DNA of 64,000 nucleotides, taken from positions 248,001 through 312,000 of the forward strand of contig NZ_RHQM01000004.1 in NCBI RefSeq assembly GCF_003935375.1, read 5' to 3'. A program made the position numbers and the translations under genes. This document shows positions 24,728 through 62,946 of the stretch, one piece after another (position 1 is the stretch's first letter; every line of letters begins with the position of its first letter). The notes under the pieces were generated by a model. It was not told the origin of the DNA. It made no database searches and was given only the letters and a program-made list of their open reading frames with translations. The DNA is from Stutzerimonas xanthomarina. GTDB lineage: Bacteria; Pseudomonadota; Gammaproteobacteria; Pseudomonadales; Pseudomonadaceae.

Positions 24728-24736
24728 ATCGCGCGC

Positions 24737-24763
24737 AAAAAAAAAGGCGACCATAGGTCGCCT
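24737..24763 (-). terminator. Rho-independent terminator of ccoM
   Basis: Stem AGGCGACC/GGTCGCCT (24745-24752, 24756-24763) with loop ATA is followed on the minus strand by T8-T9 (A run at 24737-24745). It lies 38 bp after the ccoM stop and just past the converging pulA gene. The plus strand has no T run, so it acts mainly on ccoM. Confidence 0.88.
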
Positions 24764-24801
24764 AAATGCCTTGCGTGCTCTTTGAATCTGCCGGGAATCG
24801 C

Positions 24802-24909
24802 TTACTTCTTGTGCGCATCCCGCCAGATGAAATATCCGAAGCCTCCGAGGAAGGCGACCATCAGGCCGACCGTGACCACCCCTGCGAGCACCACATCATC
24901 GACAAACAT
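24802..24909 (-). CDS. ccoM: CcoM, single-helix subunit of cbb3-type cytochrome c oxidase
   Basis: A 35-residue protein, too short for most gene callers: MFVDDVVLAGVV at the start, one membrane helix (about residues 6-28) and the end WRDAHKK. It agrees closely with my memory of CcoM, the small subunit found in the P. stutzeri cbb3-1 oxidase structure and needed for assembly and stability. The ATG has GGAGG nine bases upstream. A good terminator follows, and two ANR/FNR-type boxes lie upstream with a -10-like element correctly spaced, so the gene looks like a monocistronic oxygen-regulated unit. ccoM is normally unlinked to ccoNOQP, as here. Confidence 0.85.
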   Translation of the reverse strand: MFVDDVVLAGVVTVGLMVAFLGGFGYFIWRDAHKK

Positions 24910-24951
24910 GAGACCTACCTCCGAAACCTGATTCGCTATTCGATGGGTTCA

Positions 24952-49845: not shown

Positions 49846-50286
49846 ATGGCCGAACACGATTTCCGCTACACCCTGCTCAACCCCGCCCACACCCTCACCG
49901 AATGCCGTGCGCTGGCGCCGGGCCGCTATCAGGTAACCGGCAATGGCGGCTCGATTCGCAGCGGCGATGTACTGATCGTCACGCTCAAGGGCAGCCGCGA
50001 CCTTTCCCAGCGCCTGACAGTGGAGAAGGTCCGCCACCTGATCAACCCACCGGGGCAATGGATGGCCGTGGCCAGCGGGCCGGTATTCCGCGAACTGGAA
50101 ATCCTCAACTGGCAGGTCGCCTGCGACAGCTGCGGCAAACAGCTGGATTTCGAGTTCGCCGTGGACGCCAAGCTCGGCGAGGCCGCACGCAAGCCCGCCG
50201 CCCAGGCGCGCATCACCGAACTGGGCTGGTCCGGTCAGAGCGACCAGCACCGCTGCCCCAGCTGCCAGAAGGAGCAACAGGCATGA
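49846..50286 (+). CDS. Hypothetical protein with CxxC zinc-ribbon pairs
   Basis: A 146-residue cytoplasmic protein with two Cys pairs, CDSCGKQ (about 108-114) and CPSCQKE near the end, which probably bind one zinc. The N-terminal half is a beta-rich stretch (SIRSGDVLIVTLKGSRDL) I cannot assign to a family. It overlaps the META-domain lipoprotein gene by four bases (ATGA), so they are translationally coupled; no functional link is known. Confidence 0.7.
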   Translation: MAEHDFRYTLLNPAHTLTECRALAPGRYQVTGNGGSIRSGDVLIVTLKGSRDLSQRLTVEKVRHLINPPGQWMAVASGPVFRELEILNWQVACDSCGKQLDFEFAVDAKLGEAARKPAAQARITELGWSGQSDQHRCPSCQKEQQA

Positions 50287-50684
50287 CTTCACGAATCCTG
50301 CCACTCATCGCAGCCCTCGGACTCACAGGCTGTGCCACCGAGCAACTCGAACTGCAACGCGACGTCACCTACATCGCCGAATGGATCGGCGATGACGCCG
50401 TGATCGGCCGCACCCCCGTCTCGCTCACACTGAGCGACGGCCGCGCCTACGGCAACGCGGGCTGCAACCACTGGTTCGGCAGTTACGAGCGTGATGGCCA
50501 GCAGATCCGCTTCAGCAACCTGGGCAGCACACGCAAGATGTGTGCGGAGGAAATCATGGAGCAGGAGCACCACTTCCTCGATCTGCTCAATCGCGTCGAG
50601 CGCTGGGATGTCTCCAACATCGACCAACTGCGCCTTTGGCCCGCCCAGGGCACCCCGCTACGGCTCTGGCCGGAACAGGAATAA
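50283..50684 (+). CDS. META-domain lipoprotein (HslJ-like)
   Basis: A 133-residue lipoprotein. The short signal ends in lipobox LTGC (Cys17). The META domain is recognised from GRAYGNAGCNHWFGSYE and FSNLGSTRKMCAEEIMEQEHHFLDLLN, with the conserved GCN and MAC-like (MCAEE) positions. HslJ-type proteins are linked to novobiocin tolerance and heat in E. coli, but the mechanism is not established. Coupled to the upstream zinc-ribbon gene. An intergenic gap of 300 bp follows. Confidence 0.8.
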   Translation: MTSRILPLIAALGLTGCATEQLELQRDVTYIAEWIGDDAVIGRTPVSLTLSDGRAYGNAGCNHWFGSYERDGQQIRFSNLGSTRKMCAEEIMEQEHHFLDLLNRVERWDVSNIDQLRLWPAQGTPLRLWPEQE

Positions 50685-50695
50685 CGCGCCAAATA

Positions 50696-50719
50696 TGCGC
50701 ATGCAACAAGGCATGCGCA
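50696..50719. repeat. Perfect inverted repeat TGCGCATGC-N6-GCATGCGCA
   Basis: Nine-base arms at 50696-50704 and 50711-50719 with spacer AACAAG, 12 bp after the META lipoprotein stop. There is no T run after it. It may end that transcript, or be the upstream binding site for an activator of the sigma54-like promoter about 145 bp downstream. Confidence 0.4.
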
Positions 50720-50861
50720 CTGCTTTCACGCGAGATCACATCTGCCGACCCTTCCTTACGGCGCATCTGACACAGCGCCTGGGACCCGCCGCCCCGCGGA
50801 TTCCGGCGCTCAGCGCCTGTGAACAAGCCCGAGCAAAGCCGCCTGCCGACCTTCACGAAAT

Positions 50862-50876
50862 TGGCACATCCAGTGC
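50862..50876 (+). promoter_or_regulatory. Sigma54-type -24/-12 promoter
   Basis: TGGCACATCCAGTGCA has the invariant GG and GC with exactly ten bases between them and agrees with the consensus TGGCAC-N5-TTGCA except for G in place of the first T of the -12 element. Transcription would start near 50887 on the plus strand, where there is no protein gene in that direction. Confidence 0.6.
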
Positions 50877-50886
50877 ATAGACTGAA

Positions 50887-50979
50887 TCAACCAGTTTCGG
50901 GGACCCTGGTACAGGCAGGCCAGGGATTCCCCTCTTTTACACCCAGACGAAAAGGCCGCTCATATTGAGCGGCCTTTTT
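50887..50979 (+). ncRNA. Candidate sigma54-dependent small RNA, about 93 nt
   Basis: Between the sigma54-like promoter and a strong terminator there is no plus-strand ORF of note. The segment 50898-50933 can fold into a long hairpin: GGGGA pairs with TTCCCC and CCTGG with CCAGG, around a GC-rich loop (TACAGGCAGG). A single-stranded CTCTTTTACACCCAGACG linker then leads to the terminator stem. I do not recognise it as CrcZ, RsmY/Z, PrrF or PhrS. Ends are estimated from the promoter and terminator. Confidence 0.5.
50952..50979. terminator. Strong rho-independent terminator between the sRNA candidate and mshQ
   Basis: An 11-bp stem AAGGCCGCTCA/TGAGCGGCCTT (50952-50962, 50966-50976), loop TAT, then T run to 50979. 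The complementary A run gives a shorter T tract on the minus strand, so it may also end the msh transcript, whose last gene stops at 50985. Confidence 0.9.
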
Positions 50980-50984
50980 GCGTT

Positions 50985-53900
50985 CTAGCGATACACCTCG
51001 CGGCGGAAGATGACGGGTGGGTAGCCTGCATAGCCACCGAACGTAGCGATGGCGCTGGGGTTGGTCGGACCGGTACCGAGCCAATCGAAGTGGAGCCAAC
51101 TAGGCACATGTGGCTCGACCCGTATGCTGCCCGTATTGTCAGCGCCAGGCGCACTGAGAGTGATCAGACGTATGCCCTGCGAGGCTTCTCCTAAGGTTGC
51201 ACTCGTTTCTTCGATCGACAGGTTACCGCTCGGGTTATCGAGCGTGATGGTCTCGCTGACGACGGCACAGTCTTCATCTGCCGGGTCCGTATTGGTTACG
51301 AACGCGCTGCCGGTCCACTTCTCCAGCACAAGCGGAAGACGCAGGGGACTCAGTTCCGACCCCGTCGCCCCCTCCTGCCTGTAACGGCCCAAGATAATTT
51401 GCGAGCCGCTAATGGTGAATGCATGATCCTTCGCCGTATGGCTGGCACTGGCTTCGGCGACGAAGATCTTATCGTCGTCGATGAGCTGCGCCTTGCCAGT
51501 AAAGACCTCGATCTGCGCATCGAACAGTCTGTCGTCGTCATTCGGGACCGCCCCTCGCAGATACCGAAGTAGCAGTGAAGCAGGCATTTCCAGCGTTTTT
51601 GTGCCATCGCCGGCAGTCGTATCCGTTTCGCTGGGCGACCCCGCACCTCCGACGCTCAACCTGATGGCGACACAGTTGGCCTTGTTGTTTTCCAATCTGC
51701 AGTCCAGATCCGTAGGCGCACCCTCGCCAGGAATACGCTGGTCGAGCGAAGTACGCCCGACATTGGAAAAGAAGGTCGGCGACCAGGCTTTCGGAAATTT
51801 CCAGAACGCCCCACGGTCATAGTTGGTCGTGGTGACTCCGCTGCGATTCTTGCCAGTGATGGTGAGGCTCGGTAATTCGCTGAACTCCAGTTGCTGCGCC
51901 TGATAGGTATAGCCTGCGCTACAGGCCGGCCGGAGCGAGCCGGCCCCCGTCGCTTCGAGATAGGCAGGTGTGATCCGGCCGATATTCGCCGAAGTCCCGC
52001 CGCTCACCGCCTGCCCATCCAGATAACCACCGGGAAACGGCGTGGCGCTGATACGGAACACCCCCACCTCGGAAAACTTAACGCTCTGTACCACCTCCGA
52101 TGACAAGCTGTCGTAACCCTCGGTGATCGGCCTATGGTCGTAACGATTCTGGTCGCTGGCAGCCAGAGTCACCGTACCTCCGACCCCATCGGCCGGAGCC
52201 ACCAGCACAGAAGCCAAGGCGATGTTGTCGTGACGAAAGTTGGGCGTGGTGTTATTGCCTACGCAAAGGTCGGTATCCTCATCGCTCTGCCAGCCTACGG
52301 GCCTGAAGCGTACTGCGAAACCGTCACCTGCCGAGAAAAAAGCCTGGCAGCTAGAATCACCTTTTTCGCAGGCCCACTGTGTCGGTGAGTCCGTAGGCTC
52401 GACACATAGACCAACTGGCTTAACGACGAACTGATCCGAACCTCGCATGATCAATCCGTCGTCTCCCGTACCGGAACTACCTTTATATCTAGCGTTGAGC
52501 TCCAGTTTTCCGGCATCGTTATAGCGAAGCCTGACGATCGCCTGGGCGTCCTTATCAAACGACAGCTTTAGCGTCGTTGCAGATGTTTCGGTAGGCGCGA
52601 CAACGTTGCCGTTGAGTTCGAGCGAGCGGCCCGCGCTCGTCGAAGGATCGATATAGCCAGACCAGAATTGCACTTCACGCTCAACGTTCTGGAACGCCGG
52701 GACGCACCGCTGCGAAGCATCATCTTTTCGCACGGCCCGGATCGGGACATCATCGGAAAGCTTGTTGGACAGCTGGGGCGGCACGTCGAAGACGAAGCCT
52801 GAGTCGGCAAACGAAAGCGAGCAGTTCTTGCCGAGAGGTCCGGAGCCAATCTTGCACAGGGTTTCACTTAGCGGCTTGGTCGGCGGATTCGAGCCTGCTA
52901 TCCCCAACGTTGCACTCCCCTCGGTCGTTCTGCGGAGTGAAAAGCTACCCGTGCCACCGGAGAAGGTTTGCGTATCGCTGCTGATGGTTGATCCGCCGGA
53001 AGACAATACCGCCGTGGCCGTGACCGCCTCGGTATAAAGGGTACAGGCCGTATCCAGGCAGGCCCTTACCGATACCTGAATCGGCGAACATGTCAGTCCA
53101 ACAGAAGGCGCAATGATCTCGAAATGGTCAATCTGAGCACCGATCGGATTCATCCGATTGGCACAAACTTGCAGGTCATCCAGCTCGTGGATGTTCACGC
53201 TGCTGCCCGTCGAGCCGGTGAAGCTGAGCCAGAAATTGTCCGGTACCGCGCCCTGCGAGCTATTCGCCTGAACGTCATAATCCGCAATCAGCTTGACGTA
53301 GTTGCTACCCGTCCCGCCCGTATCACGCTCGACGGTCACCAGCGTTTTGCCGCCGGTACGCGAATCGATCGTAACGCGGTACAGATGCCCCGGGGTCGCC
53401 GTCGAGGTCGAGTTGGCATTGTCGATACCCGGCGACAGAGTGCCGGTGCCAGTCAAGTAACGATAGCCGCTGACACCGCTTCCCGAGCCACGAATAGCGA
53501 TAGCATCGCTACGGGAACCAATCCCGCCATCACGGCCTTCGGTTGCGTTGGAATAATTGCCGAACTCATCGAAACCGATACCCAGCCAGCCACCGGCGAA
53601 GCCGGAAATATCGGTCTTCTGCGCATAACCGAGAGAACCGCCATAGGCACCGGGCTGCGGCGTTACACGGGCATCGGAGACAATTAGCGCCATACCGTCG
53701 GCGCCGCGATTGCTGTTGTTGGAATAGCCGTAGTAGCGGAACGTGACGCTAATCAGGTTGTTTGCCGCCGGGAAGGTGCGCTGGACCGTCGCCCCAGTTG
53801 CCACGTTGGTGCTGTCATTGGTCAGGCGAAGCCGGCCGTTGACAATACGTGGCTCGCCGAAGTTACCGCTTCGGGTGGTAACAGCCCAATCGCCGCCGAG

Positions 53901-55151
53901 TGAACTGCGGTTGAAGTTATCGGGGGACGCAGTAAGACAGACCGGCTCGACGATGCCATCGCACAGCTTCTGCGGCGTGGTAGCGCTCGGCGTGCACACA
54001 CCGTACACATGGCTGTCCCCAGTACCTTTGATTGTCTGGTTATCCCAGTCTGCCGCCTTCACGTTACCGTAGACCAACGAGTCATTATTCAGCTCCACCC
54101 TGTTGGTCGTGGTCAGGTTCCCAGTGACCTCGCTGCGATTCAGTTCGATATTCGAGCTGCTGGCAGAGACGTTACCCGTGACGCTCATGCCATTGAGCGC
54201 CACCGTGCAACAATTGCTGCTGATGTTTCCAGCCACGAATCCGTCATTCAGCGTCACCGAGCCCGCGGTTGCAGTGACGTTGCCATTAAAATCTGTGCTG
54301 CTCGCATTGATCGTGCGGGCATTGGTTTGGCCGCCCACGCTACCACCGTCCAGCGTTACCACTCCACGGGCATCGAGCCCTCCCGCAATCACGGTTCCGG
54401 CACTAGTAATGACATCTTGCGCTGCATTGATACTCCCACCGACGCGACCGCCGTCGAGGCTGACCGTACCGTAATCGTTGCTCAGGTTTCCGCTGATCGT
54501 CGTGCCGTTGACTGTCGACACGCTACCACCGCCGATGAGGCTAGCTGCGAGGCTGCCGCCACTAAAATTAGATGTCCCACTTACTGTTACATTGCCGGCG
54601 AAGCTGCTGTTGATAGCGGTGAGACCATTGCTGATTCGTGTCACACCCATAACGGAGCTGTCGGTGAGTCGGGTGTTGCCGCTGGAGGTCAGCGTGCCGC
54701 TGATCGACGTACCGGCCAGGATAACCGCCCCGCTTTGAGTTTCCAGTGAGCCATTTACGACCGTACCGGCTAGCGACACCGGACCTGACTCGTTGCGAAC
54801 AGAACCATAGATTACGCTGGAGCCGATCGAAGTAATCGGGCTGTAGCTTGACTGCAAGTCGATCGAACGGCTTGTGCTGCCGACGGTATTGCCTGAAAGC
54901 GTGACGCCACGGTGGGCAACCACCGTAATGTCACCCAGTGGCCAGTTCGAGGACAGCTTGTCCCCCTGATCGAGAGTAACGCTACCAGAGCAGGTAAAAA
55001 CGGTACTCAAAAAATTCACGCTCCATGTGCCTGAGCACGGCGCATCGGTGTTCCACACATCGAACGTATAAGCTTTGCCGTGTGCCGCCCCGGCAAACAG
55101 CAGGCCGATCAACGACATGGCACGAAGTAACCACGAGAACATTCCTGTCAT
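50985..55151 (-). CDS. mshQ: MshQ-like giant MSHA pilus protein with solenoid and lectin-like domains
   Basis: A 1388-residue secreted protein and last gene of the MSHA cluster. Signal peptide (about 1-25) is followed by degenerate ~20-residue repeats (about 80-385: ISGNLSNDYGTVSLDGG, VAGNISSNCCTVALNG, VTGNLTTTNRVELNN) that look like a right-handed beta-solenoid. Residues about 408-665 resemble an L-type (legume-like) lectin: RGADGMALIVSD, GGWLGIGFDEFGNYS, FWLSFTGSTGSSVNIHELDD. The rest (about 680-1388) is the DUF6701 region typical of MshQ. It is probably an extracellular pilus-associated or tip adhesin. The ATG at 55151 with AAGGA upstream gives the signal peptide. Base composition looks more AT-rich than its neighbours. 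Confidence 0.85.
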   Translation of the reverse strand: MTGMFSWLLRAMSLIGLLFAGAAHGKAYTFDVWNTDAPCSGTWSVNFLSTVFTCSGSVTLDQGDKLSSNWPLGDITVVAHRGVTLSGNTVGSTSRSIDLQSSYSPITSIGSSVIYGSVRNESGPVSLAGTVVNGSLETQSGAVILAGTSISGTLTSSGNTRLTDSSVMGVTRISNGLTAINSSFAGNVTVSGTSNFSGGSLAASLIGGGSVSTVNGTTISGNLSNDYGTVSLDGGRVGGSINAAQDVITSAGTVIAGGLDARGVVTLDGGSVGGQTNARTINASSTDFNGNVTATAGSVTLNDGFVAGNISSNCCTVALNGMSVTGNVSASSSNIELNRSEVTGNLTTTNRVELNNDSLVYGNVKAADWDNQTIKGTGDSHVYGVCTPSATTPQKLCDGIVEPVCLTASPDNFNRSSLGGDWAVTTRSGNFGEPRIVNGRLRLTNDSTNVATGATVQRTFPAANNLISVTFRYYGYSNNSNRGADGMALIVSDARVTPQPGAYGGSLGYAQKTDISGFAGGWLGIGFDEFGNYSNATEGRDGGIGSRSDAIAIRGSGSGVSGYRYLTGTGTLSPGIDNANSTSTATPGHLYRVTIDSRTGGKTLVTVERDTGGTGSNYVKLIADYDVQANSSQGAVPDNFWLSFTGSTGSSVNIHELDDLQVCANRMNPIGAQIDHFEIIAPSVGLTCSPIQVSVRACLDTACTLYTEAVTATAVLSSGGSTISSDTQTFSGGTGSFSLRRTTEGSATLGIAGSNPPTKPLSETLCKIGSGPLGKNCSLSFADSGFVFDVPPQLSNKLSDDVPIRAVRKDDASQRCVPAFQNVEREVQFWSGYIDPSTSAGRSLELNGNVVAPTETSATTLKLSFDKDAQAIVRLRYNDAGKLELNARYKGSSGTGDDGLIMRGSDQFVVKPVGLCVEPTDSPTQWACEKGDSSCQAFFSAGDGFAVRFRPVGWQSDEDTDLCVGNNTTPNFRHDNIALASVLVAPADGVGGTVTLAASDQNRYDHRPITEGYDSLSSEVVQSVKFSEVGVFRISATPFPGGYLDGQAVSGGTSANIGRITPAYLEATGAGSLRPACSAGYTYQAQQLEFSELPSLTITGKNRSGVTTTNYDRGAFWKFPKAWSPTFFSNVGRTSLDQRIPGEGAPTDLDCRLENNKANCVAIRLSVGGAGSPSETDTTAGDGTKTLEMPASLLLRYLRGAVPNDDDRLFDAQIEVFTGKAQLIDDDKIFVAEASASHTAKDHAFTISGSQIILGRYRQEGATGSELSPLRLPLVLEKWTGSAFVTNTDPADEDCAVVSETITLDNPSGNLSIEETSATLGEASQGIRLITLSAPGADNTGSIRVEPHVPSWLHFDWLGTGPTNPSAIATFGGYAGYPPVIFRREVYR

Positions 55152-55203
55152 CGTTTTGAAGTCCTTGAGGGTATGAGGGCCTCTGCCCGCAAGTTGAAGC
55201 ACG

Positions 55204-55611
55204 TCACCGCTCCACCTTTGCCGTGAGCTGGCGAAACGCGTAATCCGGGCGCGCCGCAGCGGAGGGCGCGTTCTGCGCAACGGCAGTGATGGTGTAGAGC
55301 GTCAGATCCTTGCCGTTCTCACGGGAGGGATACAGCACATTGCGGCACAGCACGACGACGCCGGAAAACTCCGCAAGGGCTCCATCCAAGGCCAAGCTCG
55401 CATCGCTCACGCAAGAACCCTCATTTACGGCCTTGCGAATACCCCATTCGAGCCCGGCGCGAGCCGCCTGGTAGGCACGGGCTTGCTGAATCGCCAGGCT
55501 TATCGTCCCGTTAGTGCTGACCGAGAGCCTTGCCATGCCAACAACGGCCAGCGCGACGACGACCATCACGAACAAAGCCGCAACCAGCGAAAAGCCTTTT
55601 TCATGGCGCAT
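55204..55611 (-). CDS. mshP: MSHA minor pilin-like protein MshP
   Basis: A 135-residue PilX-like protein. Class III signal MRHEKG^FSLVAALFVMVVVALAV lacks the Glu at +5 (Ala instead), as usual for PilX/MshP-type subunits. An AYQAARAGLEWGI motif follows. It is processed by prepilin peptidase and is probably a pilus-initiating minor subunit. It overlaps mshO by 11 bases and is 52 bp before mshQ. Confidence 0.85.
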   Translation of the reverse strand: MRHEKGFSLVAALFVMVVVALAVVGMARLSVSTNGTISLAIQQARAYQAARAGLEWGIRKAVNEGSCVSDASLALDGALAEFSGVVVLCRNVLYPSRENGKDLTLYTITAVAQNAPSAAARPDYAFRQLTAKVER

Positions 55612-59860: not shown

Positions 59861-61585
59861 TCACGCGATCACCTCGTCGTCCGCCAGGGTGGCGCAGACC
59901 TTCAGCACCTCTTCGATACTGGTGACGCCGGCGATGGCGTAATCCAGCGCGCACGCCGCCAGTGGTCGATAGTGCGCCTGCTGGCGCGCGGCCTCGGCGA
60001 AGCCCTGCGGATCGCCCCGACGCAATGCGGCGATCATCGGTTCGTCCAGCTCCAGCAGCTCGTACACGCCGACACGGCCGGCATAGCCACTGTTGTGGCA
60101 TTGATGACAACCAGTGCCGCGCTTGAAGCGGTGGTCGCGCAGCGAGCCGCCGTGCAGCGCTTCCAGCCAGGCCAGTTGCCGAGGATCGGGCTGATCGTCC
60201 TCCATGCAGTTCTCGCACACGCGGCGTATCAGACGCTGGGCCAGCACCGCATTCAGCGCGGTGGCGACGAGGAAGGGCTCGACGCCCATGTCGATCAGGC
60301 GCATGGCCGAGGTCAGGGCATCGTTGGTGTGCAGCGTCGAGAGTACGAGGTGGCCGGTCAGTGCGGCGCGCAGGCCGATTTCGGCGGTTTCCTGATCACG
60401 GATCTCACCAACCAGGACGATGTCCGGGTCCTGACGCAAGGCGGCGCGCAGCACGCGGGCGAAGGTCAACTCGATCTTGGCGTTGACCTGCACCTGGTTG
60501 ACCCGCGGCAGGCGGTACTCCACCGGGTCCTCGACCGTGATGATCTTCTTCTCCGGGCTGTTCAGCTCGGAAAGCCCGGCGTAGAGCGTGGTGGTCTTGC
60601 CCGAGCCAGTAGGGCCGGTGACCAGCACCATGCCGTGCGGACGCTGCAACAGGCGCCGGAAGCGCTCGAGCATCGCCGGCGGCATGCCGGTGCCTTCGAG
60701 CTTGAACATCGCGCCGCTCTGGTCGAGCAGACGCATGACCACCGACTCGCCGAACTGCACAGGCATGGTGGAAACCCGCACATCGAGGTTGCGGTTCTTC
60801 ACGCGGATGTTGAAACGGCCGTCCTGCGGCAGGCGTTTTTCCGAGATATCCAGGCCGGACATGATCTTCAGGCGCATGACCAGCGCCGAAGCGACGCGGT
60901 GCTCCTTCATCACCTGTTCGTTGAGCACGCCGTCGATACGCTGGCGAATCCGCACCACGCCTTCGTCCGGTTCGATGTGAATGTCCGAGGCCTTCATCTG
61001 CACGGCGTCCTCGAACAGCGTCTGCAGCAGGCGCACCACCGGCGCATCGCTGTTGCTTTCGCCGAGGCGCGAGAGGTCAAAATCACTTTCCTGCAGCTCA
61101 CCTTCCAGCTCGCCGGCCAGCGAGGCGATCTCACTGGTACGGCGGTAAAGCTGGTCCAGCGCGCCGAGCAGCTCGCTTTCACGCACCACCGCCGGGTGGA
61201 CGCGCTTGCCCAGCAGGCGCTCGATCTCGTCCTGGGCGAAGATGTCCAGCGGGTCGGTCATGCCCACCAGCAAACCATCGCCCTGGCGGGACAGCACGAT
61301 GACCCGGAAGCGCCGGGCGACCGCCTCGGGCAGGCTCTGGGTCAGCTGGTTGTCGAACTTGTAGTGCTTGAGTTCGACGAAGGGAATCTGCAGCTGCTCG
61401 GACAGCGCACGCAGCAGGCGGCCTTCGTCGATGAAGCCGAGGTCGAGTACCGTACGCCCGAGCTTGGAGCCGGTGCGCTTTTGGTCCTGCAGCGCCTGCT
61501 GCAGCTGCGCCTCGCTGATCAGGCCGGCTTGGACCAGCAGATCGCCGAGACGAATCTTGCGCTGGCGCATGTCTTGCGCGGTCAT
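59861..61585 (-). CDS. mshE: MSHA pilus extension ATPase MshE
   Basis: A 574-residue secretion ATPase that powers pilus extension. The N-terminal MshEN domain carries two 24-residue c-di-GMP-binding motifs: residues 12-35 (RLGDLLVQAGLIS...) and 41-64 (KLGRTVLDLGFID...), each with the R/KLG, the central G and the end Q. The ATPase core has Walker A GPTGSGKTTTLYAGL, VEDPVEYR, Walker B VLVGEIRDQETAE and a zinc-binding tetracysteine (CENC...CHQC). All are intact, so the pilus is predicted to be c-di-GMP dependent. It overlaps mshN by four bases. Confidence 0.95.
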   Translation of the reverse strand: MTAQDMRQRKIRLGDLLVQAGLISEAQLQQALQDQKRTGSKLGRTVLDLGFIDEGRLLRALSEQLQIPFVELKHYKFDNQLTQSLPEAVARRFRVIVLSRQGDGLLVGMTDPLDIFAQDEIERLLGKRVHPAVVRESELLGALDQLYRRTSEIASLAGELEGELQESDFDLSRLGESNSDAPVVRLLQTLFEDAVQMKASDIHIEPDEGVVRIRQRIDGVLNEQVMKEHRVASALVMRLKIMSGLDISEKRLPQDGRFNIRVKNRNLDVRVSTMPVQFGESVVMRLLDQSGAMFKLEGTGMPPAMLERFRRLLQRPHGMVLVTGPTGSGKTTTLYAGLSELNSPEKKIITVEDPVEYRLPRVNQVQVNAKIELTFARVLRAALRQDPDIVLVGEIRDQETAEIGLRAALTGHLVLSTLHTNDALTSAMRLIDMGVEPFLVATALNAVLAQRLIRRVCENCMEDDQPDPRQLAWLEALHGGSLRDHRFKRGTGCHQCHNSGYAGRVGVYELLELDEPMIAALRRGDPQGFAEAARQQAHYRPLAACALDYAIAGVTSIEEVLKVCATLADDEVIA

Positions 61586-62946
61586 CGGGCACCTCCGAGT
61601 ACGCCGGCACGTTCGGCGGCGAAGCGCCGCGAGTTGTCATCGAGCCCCTGCCCTTGCGCGGCCAGACGGTAGTGGCGCGCCGCCCGGGCGGGTTGATCAA
61701 TCTGTTCCAGCGCGATGGCCAAGCCCAGCTGCCAGGCCGCCTGCTGCGGCTGAAGAGCCACCAGCTGGCGATAAACCGCAGCGCTGCCGGCCCAGTCGCC
61801 GACCTGCTGCTGCAGAGCTGCCAGCAACGCGTGATAGCCGGGATCGCTGGCCAGTGACGGCGCGTTCTGCACCAGGGTGGCGAGCGCCGTCTGTTTGTCG
61901 CCGCTCTGCAGCTGGCCACGGGCGAGCAGCATACGTAGCTCGGCATCGAACGGCCGCCTCTGCAGCTGGGCCGGCAGCCACTCGAGCAATGGCTCGATCT
62001 GTCCAGCAGCCAGGTAAGCACGAGCCAACCAGCGGGCCGCCTCGACGTTGTCCGGCTGTGCGGCATGGAGCTCCTGCAGCAGCTCGATGGCACGGGGGAA
62101 GTTCTGCTGTTGCAGCGCATCTCGCGCCTGGGCCAGCGGGTCCGGTCGATGACTGCCGATCTGCACGGTGGCCGTGGTGGCAACCTGGGGTCTGGCAACC
62201 GGCGCCGAGGCCGGCTCGGCGACCGGCTGCACATCCGGCGCGATAACCGGCGCGGTTTGCGCGTCTGGCGCCGTGCGGGTCACCCAGTCCGGCAGGCCCG
62301 CTTCGTCCAACGCCGGCTCGGCGAAAGGCAGGTCCAGGTCCTCAGGAACGGCCACTGGTGCGCCATCCATGTGGACTTCCAGCCAGAGCTGCGCATGGCC
62401 AGCGGCCGGCTCAAGACGATCACGCACGTCGAGGCGATCGGTCATGCCGAGCAGCAGCACCTGCACCTGGTCGCCCTGCTGTTCCACTCGCCAGGACAGG
62501 CTTAGGCCATTGCTCTCCACGCGGCCGTTTCGCGGGCCACCGGCGAGCGTCACATCCGGCAAACGCAGACTGATCGCGCCGCCTTCGTCGGTGCGCTGAT
62601 AGCTGATCGAGCGATCCAGCAGCAACTGCAGCACGAAACGGCCACCGTCTTGCTGCGGCAAGACGTCGAGGAGCTGAGTTGCAGGCACCGCAGCCACCAC
62701 CGGAGCGGCGGCAGGTGACTCCTGCACAGCCGGGGCTTGCGCGAAACGTTCGAACAGCACCACCGATACCGCGACGACCAACGCCCCGATAGCCAGCGGC
62801 AACAACCAGCGGCGCAGCCGTGCCGATCGCTGACGCCGCGTTGCGGCTGCTTCATCGACAGCCTGCATGTCGAGGAATGGGCTCTGCCCGCCGGATGCCG
62901 CGCCGCGCGCTTCGAGATCGCGCAGCATGTCGTTGACCAGGCTCAT
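61582..62946 (-). CDS. mshN: MSHA biogenesis protein MshN (TPR)
   Basis: A 454-residue inner-membrane protein. A cytoplasmic N terminus (MSLVNDMLRDLEARG) is followed by one membrane helix (about 47-66), an AMIN-like beta domain (about 105-215), and TPR repeats (about 270-450: ALQQQNFPRAIELLQELHAAQ, LLARGQLQSGDKQTALATL). It probably links the inner-membrane machinery to the secretin in the periplasm. The ATG at 62946 overlaps mshM by four bases. Confidence 0.9.
   Translation of the reverse strand: MSLVNDMLRDLEARGAASGGQSPFLDMQAVDEAAATRRQRSARLRRWLLPLAIGALVVAVSVVLFERFAQAPAVQESPAAAPVVAAVPATQLLDVLPQQDGGRFVLQLLLDRSISYQRTDEGGAISLRLPDVTLAGGPRNGRVESNGLSLSWRVEQQGDQVQVLLLGMTDRLDVRDRLEPAAGHAQLWLEVHMDGAPVAVPEDLDLPFAEPALDEAGLPDWVTRTAPDAQTAPVIAPDVQPVAEPASAPVARPQVATTATVQIGSHRPDPLAQARDALQQQNFPRAIELLQELHAAQPDNVEAARWLARAYLAAGQIEPLLEWLPAQLQRRPFDAELRMLLARGQLQSGDKQTALATLVQNAPSLASDPGYHALLAALQQQVGDWAGSAAVYRQLVALQPQQAAWQLGLAIALEQIDQPARAARHYRLAAQGQGLDDNSRRFAAERAGVLGGAR

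Follow-up and report, generated by a model that had tools for sequence, protein, structure and literature searches.

A probable single-hairpin nrsZ gene with a sigma-54 promoter element beside the MSHA cluster of Stutzerimonas

Introduction

Which RNA, if any, is encoded in the short gap between a META-domain gene and the end of the MSHA pilus cluster in Stutzerimonas xanthomarina? The window analyzed here is a contiguous stretch of 64,000 nucleotides, in which an earlier note, made from the letters, had marked a candidate sigma-54-controlled small RNA (sRNA) gene consisting of a -24/-12 promoter element, a hairpin, and a terminator, and had regarded the product as a separate RNA that its author could not equate with a named one.

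The sRNA NrsZ of Pseudomonas aeruginosa is a natural point of comparison. According to reviews, NrsZ requires NtrB/C and RpoN, acts on the rhlA 5'UTR by post-transcriptional activation, and is functional in its first 60 nt, called SLI (PMC8395346, PMC9308961), with ACAGGCAG being named as a conserved NrsZ motif (PMC9308961). It is among the sRNAs seen in a P. aeruginosa Hfq CLIP study (PMC6890931) and is also treated elsewhere (PMC6606865, PMC13390351, PMC9731577).

Architecture and conservation of the element

The features of the locus are collected in Table 1, where the transcript start is placed about 12 nt past the GC of the -12 element. The promoter, hairpin, and terminator were located within 1 to 2 nt of the positions first noted, and the start-type codons in 50887-50982 on the strand of the element, where the earlier note had seen no open reading frame, are just two TTG, both inside the terminator. 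The predicted RNA 50885-50982 (98 nt) has a folding energy of -47.2 kcal/mol (z = -6.7), with 0/200 shuffles reaching a value as low. Taken by itself, the -24/-12 pattern does not exceed the chance level in the 64-kb window, with 3 matches against 1.19 expected and at least 3 in 12/100 shuffles, and a simple terminator scanner run on the window does not list the terminator of the element. It is the conservation among related sequences that raises the whole element above chance.

Table 1. Features of the putative nrsZ locus and its two neighbors (positions in the window)
Feature	Positions	Strand	Remarks
Upstream META-domain gene, lipoprotein-like by eye	50283..50684	+	Pfam META 6e-24; stop abuts putative enhancer
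Predicted NtrC-like site 1, CGCGCCAAATATGCGCA	50685..50701	+	11/14 positions of the consensus; directly after META stop
Predicted NtrC-like site 2 (weak), CGCACTGCTTTCACGCG	50716..50732	+	8/14 positions; 31 bp downstream of site 1
Sigma-54 (-24/-12) promoter, sequence element, TGGCACATCCAGTGCA	50862..50877	+	GG (50863-50864)-N10-GC (50875-50876)
Predicted transcript, NrsZ-like sRNA, about 93-96 nt	50887..50982	+	RF02695 match from 50888; fold z -6.7
Hairpin, NrsZ stem-loop 1 module, GGGGACCCUGGU-ACAGGCAG-GCCAGGG-AU-UCCCC	50899..50932	+	
Exposed loop, NrsZ motif, ACAGGCAG	50911..50918	+	
U-rich single-stranded patch 3' of hairpin, CUCUUUUA	50932..50939	+	Conserved in genus alignment
Intrinsic terminator, AAAAGGCCGCUCA-UAU-UGAGCGGCCUUUUU	50950..50979	+	Nearly symmetrical stem
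Downstream convergent MshQ-like gene, MSHA cluster end	50985..55202	-	DUF6701 9.5e-127; ORF extendable to 55280

Searching with a hairpin covariance model, for which 45 distinct sequences from the genus were used, gives matches in 53/56 Stutzerimonas genomes, one in each except for two in G011. The genomes G009, G025, and G038 yield no hairpin match with this model, even with more candidates scored. Relatives that keep the neighboring genes have thus mostly kept the element too, the exceptions being G025 and G038, where META is kept and the whole element is cleanly missing, and G009 with its missing match. A DNA search with 50600-50985 finds matches in 55/56 genus genomes, some of them over the upstream gene part only.

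The comparison across Stutzerimonas shows the promoter, the hairpin, the U-rich patch, and usually the terminator to recur, and the upstream spacer not to. The promoter motif TGGCA-N7-TGCA is invariant in 53/53 Stutzerimonas elements, and its distance from the -12 element to the hairpin varies by only 3 nt. Among these elements, mean pairwise identity falls from 0.92 in the hairpin core (30 nt) to 0.77 in the promoter and to 0.30 in the 50-nt upstream spacer (unaligned). A terminator-like structure is present in 41 of the 51 genus elements with enough sequence, a count that leaves out two elements at contig ends, and 10/51 have no recognizable one by the rule used. The loop ACAGGCAG is kept in 44/45 distinct genus sequences, with one base being different in L066. 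These sequences support a free-standing, conserved sigma-54-type sRNA gene of about 93 to 96 nt beside MSHA, as the earlier note had proposed.

Beyond the genus, the single-module model matches in 233/298 family genomes, with 1 to 5 matches per genome, whereas in a sample of 145 genomes from the order 5 match, all five from the family. By eye, TGGCA-N7-TGC is present in 20/21 family loci listed, L167 being the one without it. Of 40 distinct modules from other genera, a set chosen for similarity to the loop ACAGGCAG, 37 have it unchanged; the first base is C in two of the others and T in one.

Relationship to NrsZ

A search with Rfam covariance models had been suggested for the element and, run permissively, it returned NrsZ (RF02695) over stem-loop 1 with 48.7 bits and an E value of 2.9e-11. 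RF02695 has a gathering score of 76.9 bits, so that default RNA annotation misses the gene. The 64-kb window searched at gathering thresholds gave PhrS alone and no NrsZ match, PhrS being present as a full-length sRNA gene at 24736-24944 on the minus strand (Rfam RF01673, 153.4 bits, E 1.5e-37). At an E value of 1 or below, RF02695 matches in 51/56 genus genomes, with 0/56 over the cut-off, and in 0/14 control genomes. Across the family, RF02695 matches in 224/298 genomes at E <= 0.01 and reaches the cut-off in 108.

The gene order connects the single hairpin to NrsZ as well. G168, a genome that we label P. aeruginosa-like, carries three modules behind ntrC, followed by a PA5126-like gene, trmL, and secB (locus L188), and single-module copies are found in other genera in the order ntrC–nrsZ–PA5126-like–trmL (for example, L159, L171, L173, and L178). 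One-module and multi-module RNAs share the ntrC–trmL locus and are therefore positional orthologues. The host has its ntrC on another contig (C22), where the next genes are the PA5126-like one and trmL, without an intervening nrsZ, indicating that nrsZ moved to the META site. The META context is common to a second genus, g11 (L161 and L165).

The view that the RNA equals no named one is therefore not borne out, the element being homologous to NrsZ stem-loop 1 and, by way of the single-hairpin copies at ntrC, a positional orthologue of NrsZ. We consider it highly probable from these comparisons that the element is the Stutzerimonas nrsZ, a homologue consisting of stem-loop 1 only, which moved from behind ntrC to behind META. 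The homology, the promoter element, the hairpin, the loop conservation, the terminator, and the relocation can all be read from the sequences.

The element resembles P. aeruginosa NrsZ in the sequence and fold of stem-loop 1, in the loop ACAGGCAG, in the U-rich patch 3' of the hairpin, and in the sigma-54 promoter type before the first hairpin, here a sequence element. It differs in having one module, where NrsZ has three and the host has neither module 2 nor module 3, in its predicted length of about 95 nt compared to a processed transcript of about 226 nt, in the strong terminator of its own, and in its place after META, whereas the NrsZ gene lies between ntrC and a PA5126-type gene. We did not file the element as a formal member of RF02695, because its score lies below the gathering score, it has one module rather than three, and it lies away from ntrC; this lowers the label, not the homology to NrsZ.

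In the titles and abstract openings of the openly accessible literature, main texts only, we found no account of NrsZ in Stutzerimonas. An overexpression study of eight sRNAs in S. perfectomarina does not name NrsZ among them (PMC13086519).

Stem covariation, targets, and mode of action

In the proposed mechanism, nitrogen limitation would lead to NtrC~P on two sites about 130 to 177 bp upstream of the -24 element, where the bound NtrC~P would activate sigma-54 RNA polymerase and transcription would start at about 50887. The resulting RNA of about 95 nt would be ended by its own terminator at 50979, its hairpin would expose ACAGGCAG, and the loop would base-pair with the mRNAs of its targets, as NrsZ is reported to do on rhlA. 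The CUCUUUUA patch, a candidate RNase E and/or Hfq site, would serve processing and turnover or Hfq contact. Transcription, NtrC control, the role of Hfq or RNase E, and pairing are the parts of this model that we infer.

The RNAalifold structure of the 45 distinct genus sequences has 10 pairs, 3 of them with changes on both sides. The family alignment, A2, comprises 11 genus modules and 36 of the 40 distinct ones from other genera; the invariance of the loop in it is partly by choice, since the four modules left out include all three with a differing loop. In this alignment of 47 modules (46 distinct), pairing holds in 92.8% of the cells compared to 92.0% in shuffles (reached by 43/500), a double change occurs in 4/12 pairs (reached by 3/500 shuffles), and further pair types number 12, compared to 10.6 in shuffles (reached by 5/500). 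Doubly changed cells are not enriched over shuffles, with 7 in total (reached by 274/500), and 5 pairs are invariant. Sliding the partners by one column brings pairing down to 73% or 67%. Two stem pairs are unpaired in 19/46 and 17/46 rows of the family alignment, which is ungapped, so that the outer part of the stem is broken in modules that are one base shorter. With these mixed shuffle results, the support from covariation is modest, and so is the extent of compensatory stem change.

To look for candidate targets, both strands were searched for sequences complementary to the loop with its flanks (GCCTGCCTGTACC), allowing at most one mismatch and using the reversed pattern as a control. The search yielded 14 sites in G000, one of which is nrsZ, against 8 control sites, and 15 sites in G029, again including nrsZ, against 13, showing no clear target enrichment in these two Stutzerimonas genomes. 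The P. aeruginosa-like genome G168 has 44 sites, three of them being the modules, against 12 control sites, and base composition may account for this excess. A start codon and a Shine-Dalgarno-like stretch were found near the site in 4 of the 30 sites examined, out of 73 in total (L195, L206, L199, and L212). The sites L195 (G000) and L206 (G029) belong to the same gene, with an ATG 25 nt past the site start and a 119-codon open reading frame that looks alkyltransferase-like by eye. As a target, this gene is a weak lead that may be due to chance. When 48 crude gene starts from the window were scanned for duplex formation, the MSHA genes were not prominent, the best of them, 61582-62946, ranking ninth.

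The missing conserved antisense target in the loop-complement search of the host would fit an RNA that acts as a protein-binding decoy, as CrcZ or RsmY do, with stem-loop modules titrating an RNA-binding protein instead of base-pairing. Stem and loop together are near-invariant, and the near-identical modules, repeated up to five times in relatives, resemble tandem binding sites. Titration by a single module would be poor, however, the inner-stem letters vary with pairing kept, and the action of NrsZ on the rhlA 5'UTR is described in reviews (PMC8395346, PMC9308961), so that we regard a decoy function as unlikely, if arguable, and prefer base-pairing through the exposed loop.

Putative control by NtrC

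The consensus of NtrC sites is TGCRCCA-N3-TGGYGCA, and the host region between META and the promoter contains two sites resembling it (Table 1), with an alternative register of 29 bp for site 2 (50714) scoring equally. The better single site of the host region (11/14) is weak by itself, being reached by 10/100 shuffles. Many genomes of the genus have similar sites just past the META stop, and their best site starts 99 to 246 bp from the promoter. The best tandem scores in 49 upstream regions have a mean of 19.3 compared to 16.9 in shuffles, the largest of the 200 shuffle-round means being 17.4; the regions are related and so do not represent independent tests, and in several of them the shuffles often score as well. 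Outside the genus the scan with the consensus is hardly above shuffles (mean of 10.0 against 9.1), likewise upstream of the P. aeruginosa-like gene, so that we do not count it as support.

Both NtrC-like sites are overlapped by a perfect inverted repeat, TGCGCATGC-AACAAG-GCATGCGCA (50696-50719), which could belong to the enhancer or weakly terminate META transcription.

NtrC sites have also been given as TGC-N11-GCA (PMC6606865), and a strict scan for this pattern finds none in the host, whereas 24/48 genus upstream regions contain it. The absence of this pattern in the host and in the other 24/48 regions, together with the degeneracy of the NtrC-like sites, leaves room for a sigma-54 sRNA of the NrsZ family that is driven by a different enhancer-binding protein and reports carbon or another state. 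The sigma-54 promoter demands some activator, whichever it may be, and CbrB, for example, serves CrcZ-type RNAs (PMC9308961). Tandem sites of the type [CT]GCGCCA...GCGCA, spaced by about 31 bp, recur nevertheless, and control by NtrB/C has a precedent in the family (PMC8395346, PMC9308961), making an activator other than NtrC quite improbable. Control of the Stutzerimonas nrsZ by NtrC, with its precedent in NrsZ, is plausible.

Comparison with other small RNAs

CrcZ and CrcY come from the same bacterial family and are sigma-54-dependent sRNAs, and CrcZ has an Rfam entry. The element is like them in being a sigma-54-type sRNA gene of this family; neither is found among the 12 Rfam hits of the host element up to an E value of 10. 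CrcZ and CrcY are listed among the nitrogen-responsive ncRNAs of Pseudomonas stutzeri A1501 (PMC6606865).

Two further RNAs of A1501, NfiR and NfiS, are closer in that they come from the same genus and are nitrogen linked and NtrC dependent (PMC6606865). NfiR is 54 nt long and is encoded between PST2408 and the (assimilatory) nitrite-reductase gene (PMC6606865), differing in both length and locus from the element with its neighbors META and MshQ. NfiS has a length of 254 nt and published katB-pairing sequences (PMC6755748), which are absent by eye from 50887-50982.

NfiS, NfiR, and ncRNA31 are lost in an A1501 ntrC mutant (PMC6606865), which would agree with the element being an already named Stutzerimonas ncRNA of the NfiR, NfiS, or CrcZ/CrcY type. 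The length and locus of NfiR, the length and sequences of NfiS, and the missing CrcZ match all disagree with that identity, which we hold to be very unlikely. Among the A1501 RNAs, ncRNA31 could be the one encoded here.

Genomic neighborhood and the MSHA cluster

META is matched in 52/55 fetched genus loci. The gene on the other side of the element, which we take to be mshQ from its position, converges on the nearly symmetrical terminator, which may therefore also serve mshQ. Its protein product has a bactofilin-like stretch (Pfam Bactofilin, 1.7e-7) besides DUF6701. That the element is a decayed remnant without transcription of its own, kept merely as a bidirectional mshQ terminator, is hardly credible despite this symmetry and convergence, since the promoter and hairpin are conserved where MSHA is absent from the locus and conservation peaks in the hairpin, not in the terminator.

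With MshO as the marker for MSHA, 67/298 family genomes possess the cluster, and among the matches listed a placed nrsZ is found in 60 of these 67, the other seven either lacking nrsZ or having none among those matches. The distance between nrsZ and MSHA is below 10 kb in 48 of the 60 genomes with both placed, again among the matches listed (in the host, window 50899-55611). The other 12 include 3 at 10 to 15 kb, 2 far apart on the same contig, and 7 on different contigs, some of these being draft breaks. The 5' neighbor of an MSHA-linked nrsZ is META in Stutzerimonas, ntrC in L174 and L177, and an MFS-type gene, by eye, in L184. In G288, one of the 48, the PA5126-like gene and trmL separate nrsZ from MSHA.

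In Stutzerimonas, MSHA genes are found beside nrsZ or META in 29/55 fetched loci, and dinB follows beyond nrsZ in 21 loci without MSHA matches. The distance from gltX to nrsZ is 4.3 kb in the MSHA-less G006 and 20.9 to 22.5 kb in six MSHA genomes that have gltX and nrsZ on one contig (G003, G023, G029, G031, G048, and G049), so that the MSHA cluster looks like a presence/absence block of about 17 kb between nrsZ and dinB(-gltX). The locus L067 compared to G029 is an example of such a block between nrsZ and dinB.

The MSHA genes can diverge strongly from strain to strain despite near-identical flanks, for example in L065, where orf172 is 99% and MshQ 35% identical. Two copies of nrsZ are present in G011. 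The copy linked to META is intact. The other lies beside MSHA at L116 (G011:C49), about 300 to 550 nt from the contig end, and about 155 bp interrupt its hairpin.

From this arrangement, nrsZ would seem either to move along with MSHA or to mark a site that MSHA uses. It would go further to regard nrsZ and MSHA as a conserved linked pair that relocates together in the Pseudomonadaceae, behind ntrC, META, or an MFS-type gene, and whose linkage is functional, in that nitrogen starvation, via NrsZ or via transcription converging on mshQ, would adjust MSHA attachment; this is a speculative and rather improbable reading. Our search of the openly accessible literature, main texts only, found no paper on the MSHA pilus gene cluster in Pseudomonas stutzeri.

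Conclusions

The assignment gives a nitrogen-type sRNA gene to nearly the whole genus Stutzerimonas, including model denitrifiers and diazotrophs, a gene that default RNA annotation misses because the Rfam model expects three modules. The functional SLI unit of NrsZ, judging from these loci, occurs alone in nature, and this natural version of the minimal unit makes one module testable without truncation. The comparison sets the conserved parts, namely the promoter element, the loop, and the hairpin, apart from the variable ones, namely the copy number and the address in the genome, and it brings to light a recurrent, testable linkage of nrsZ and MSHA.
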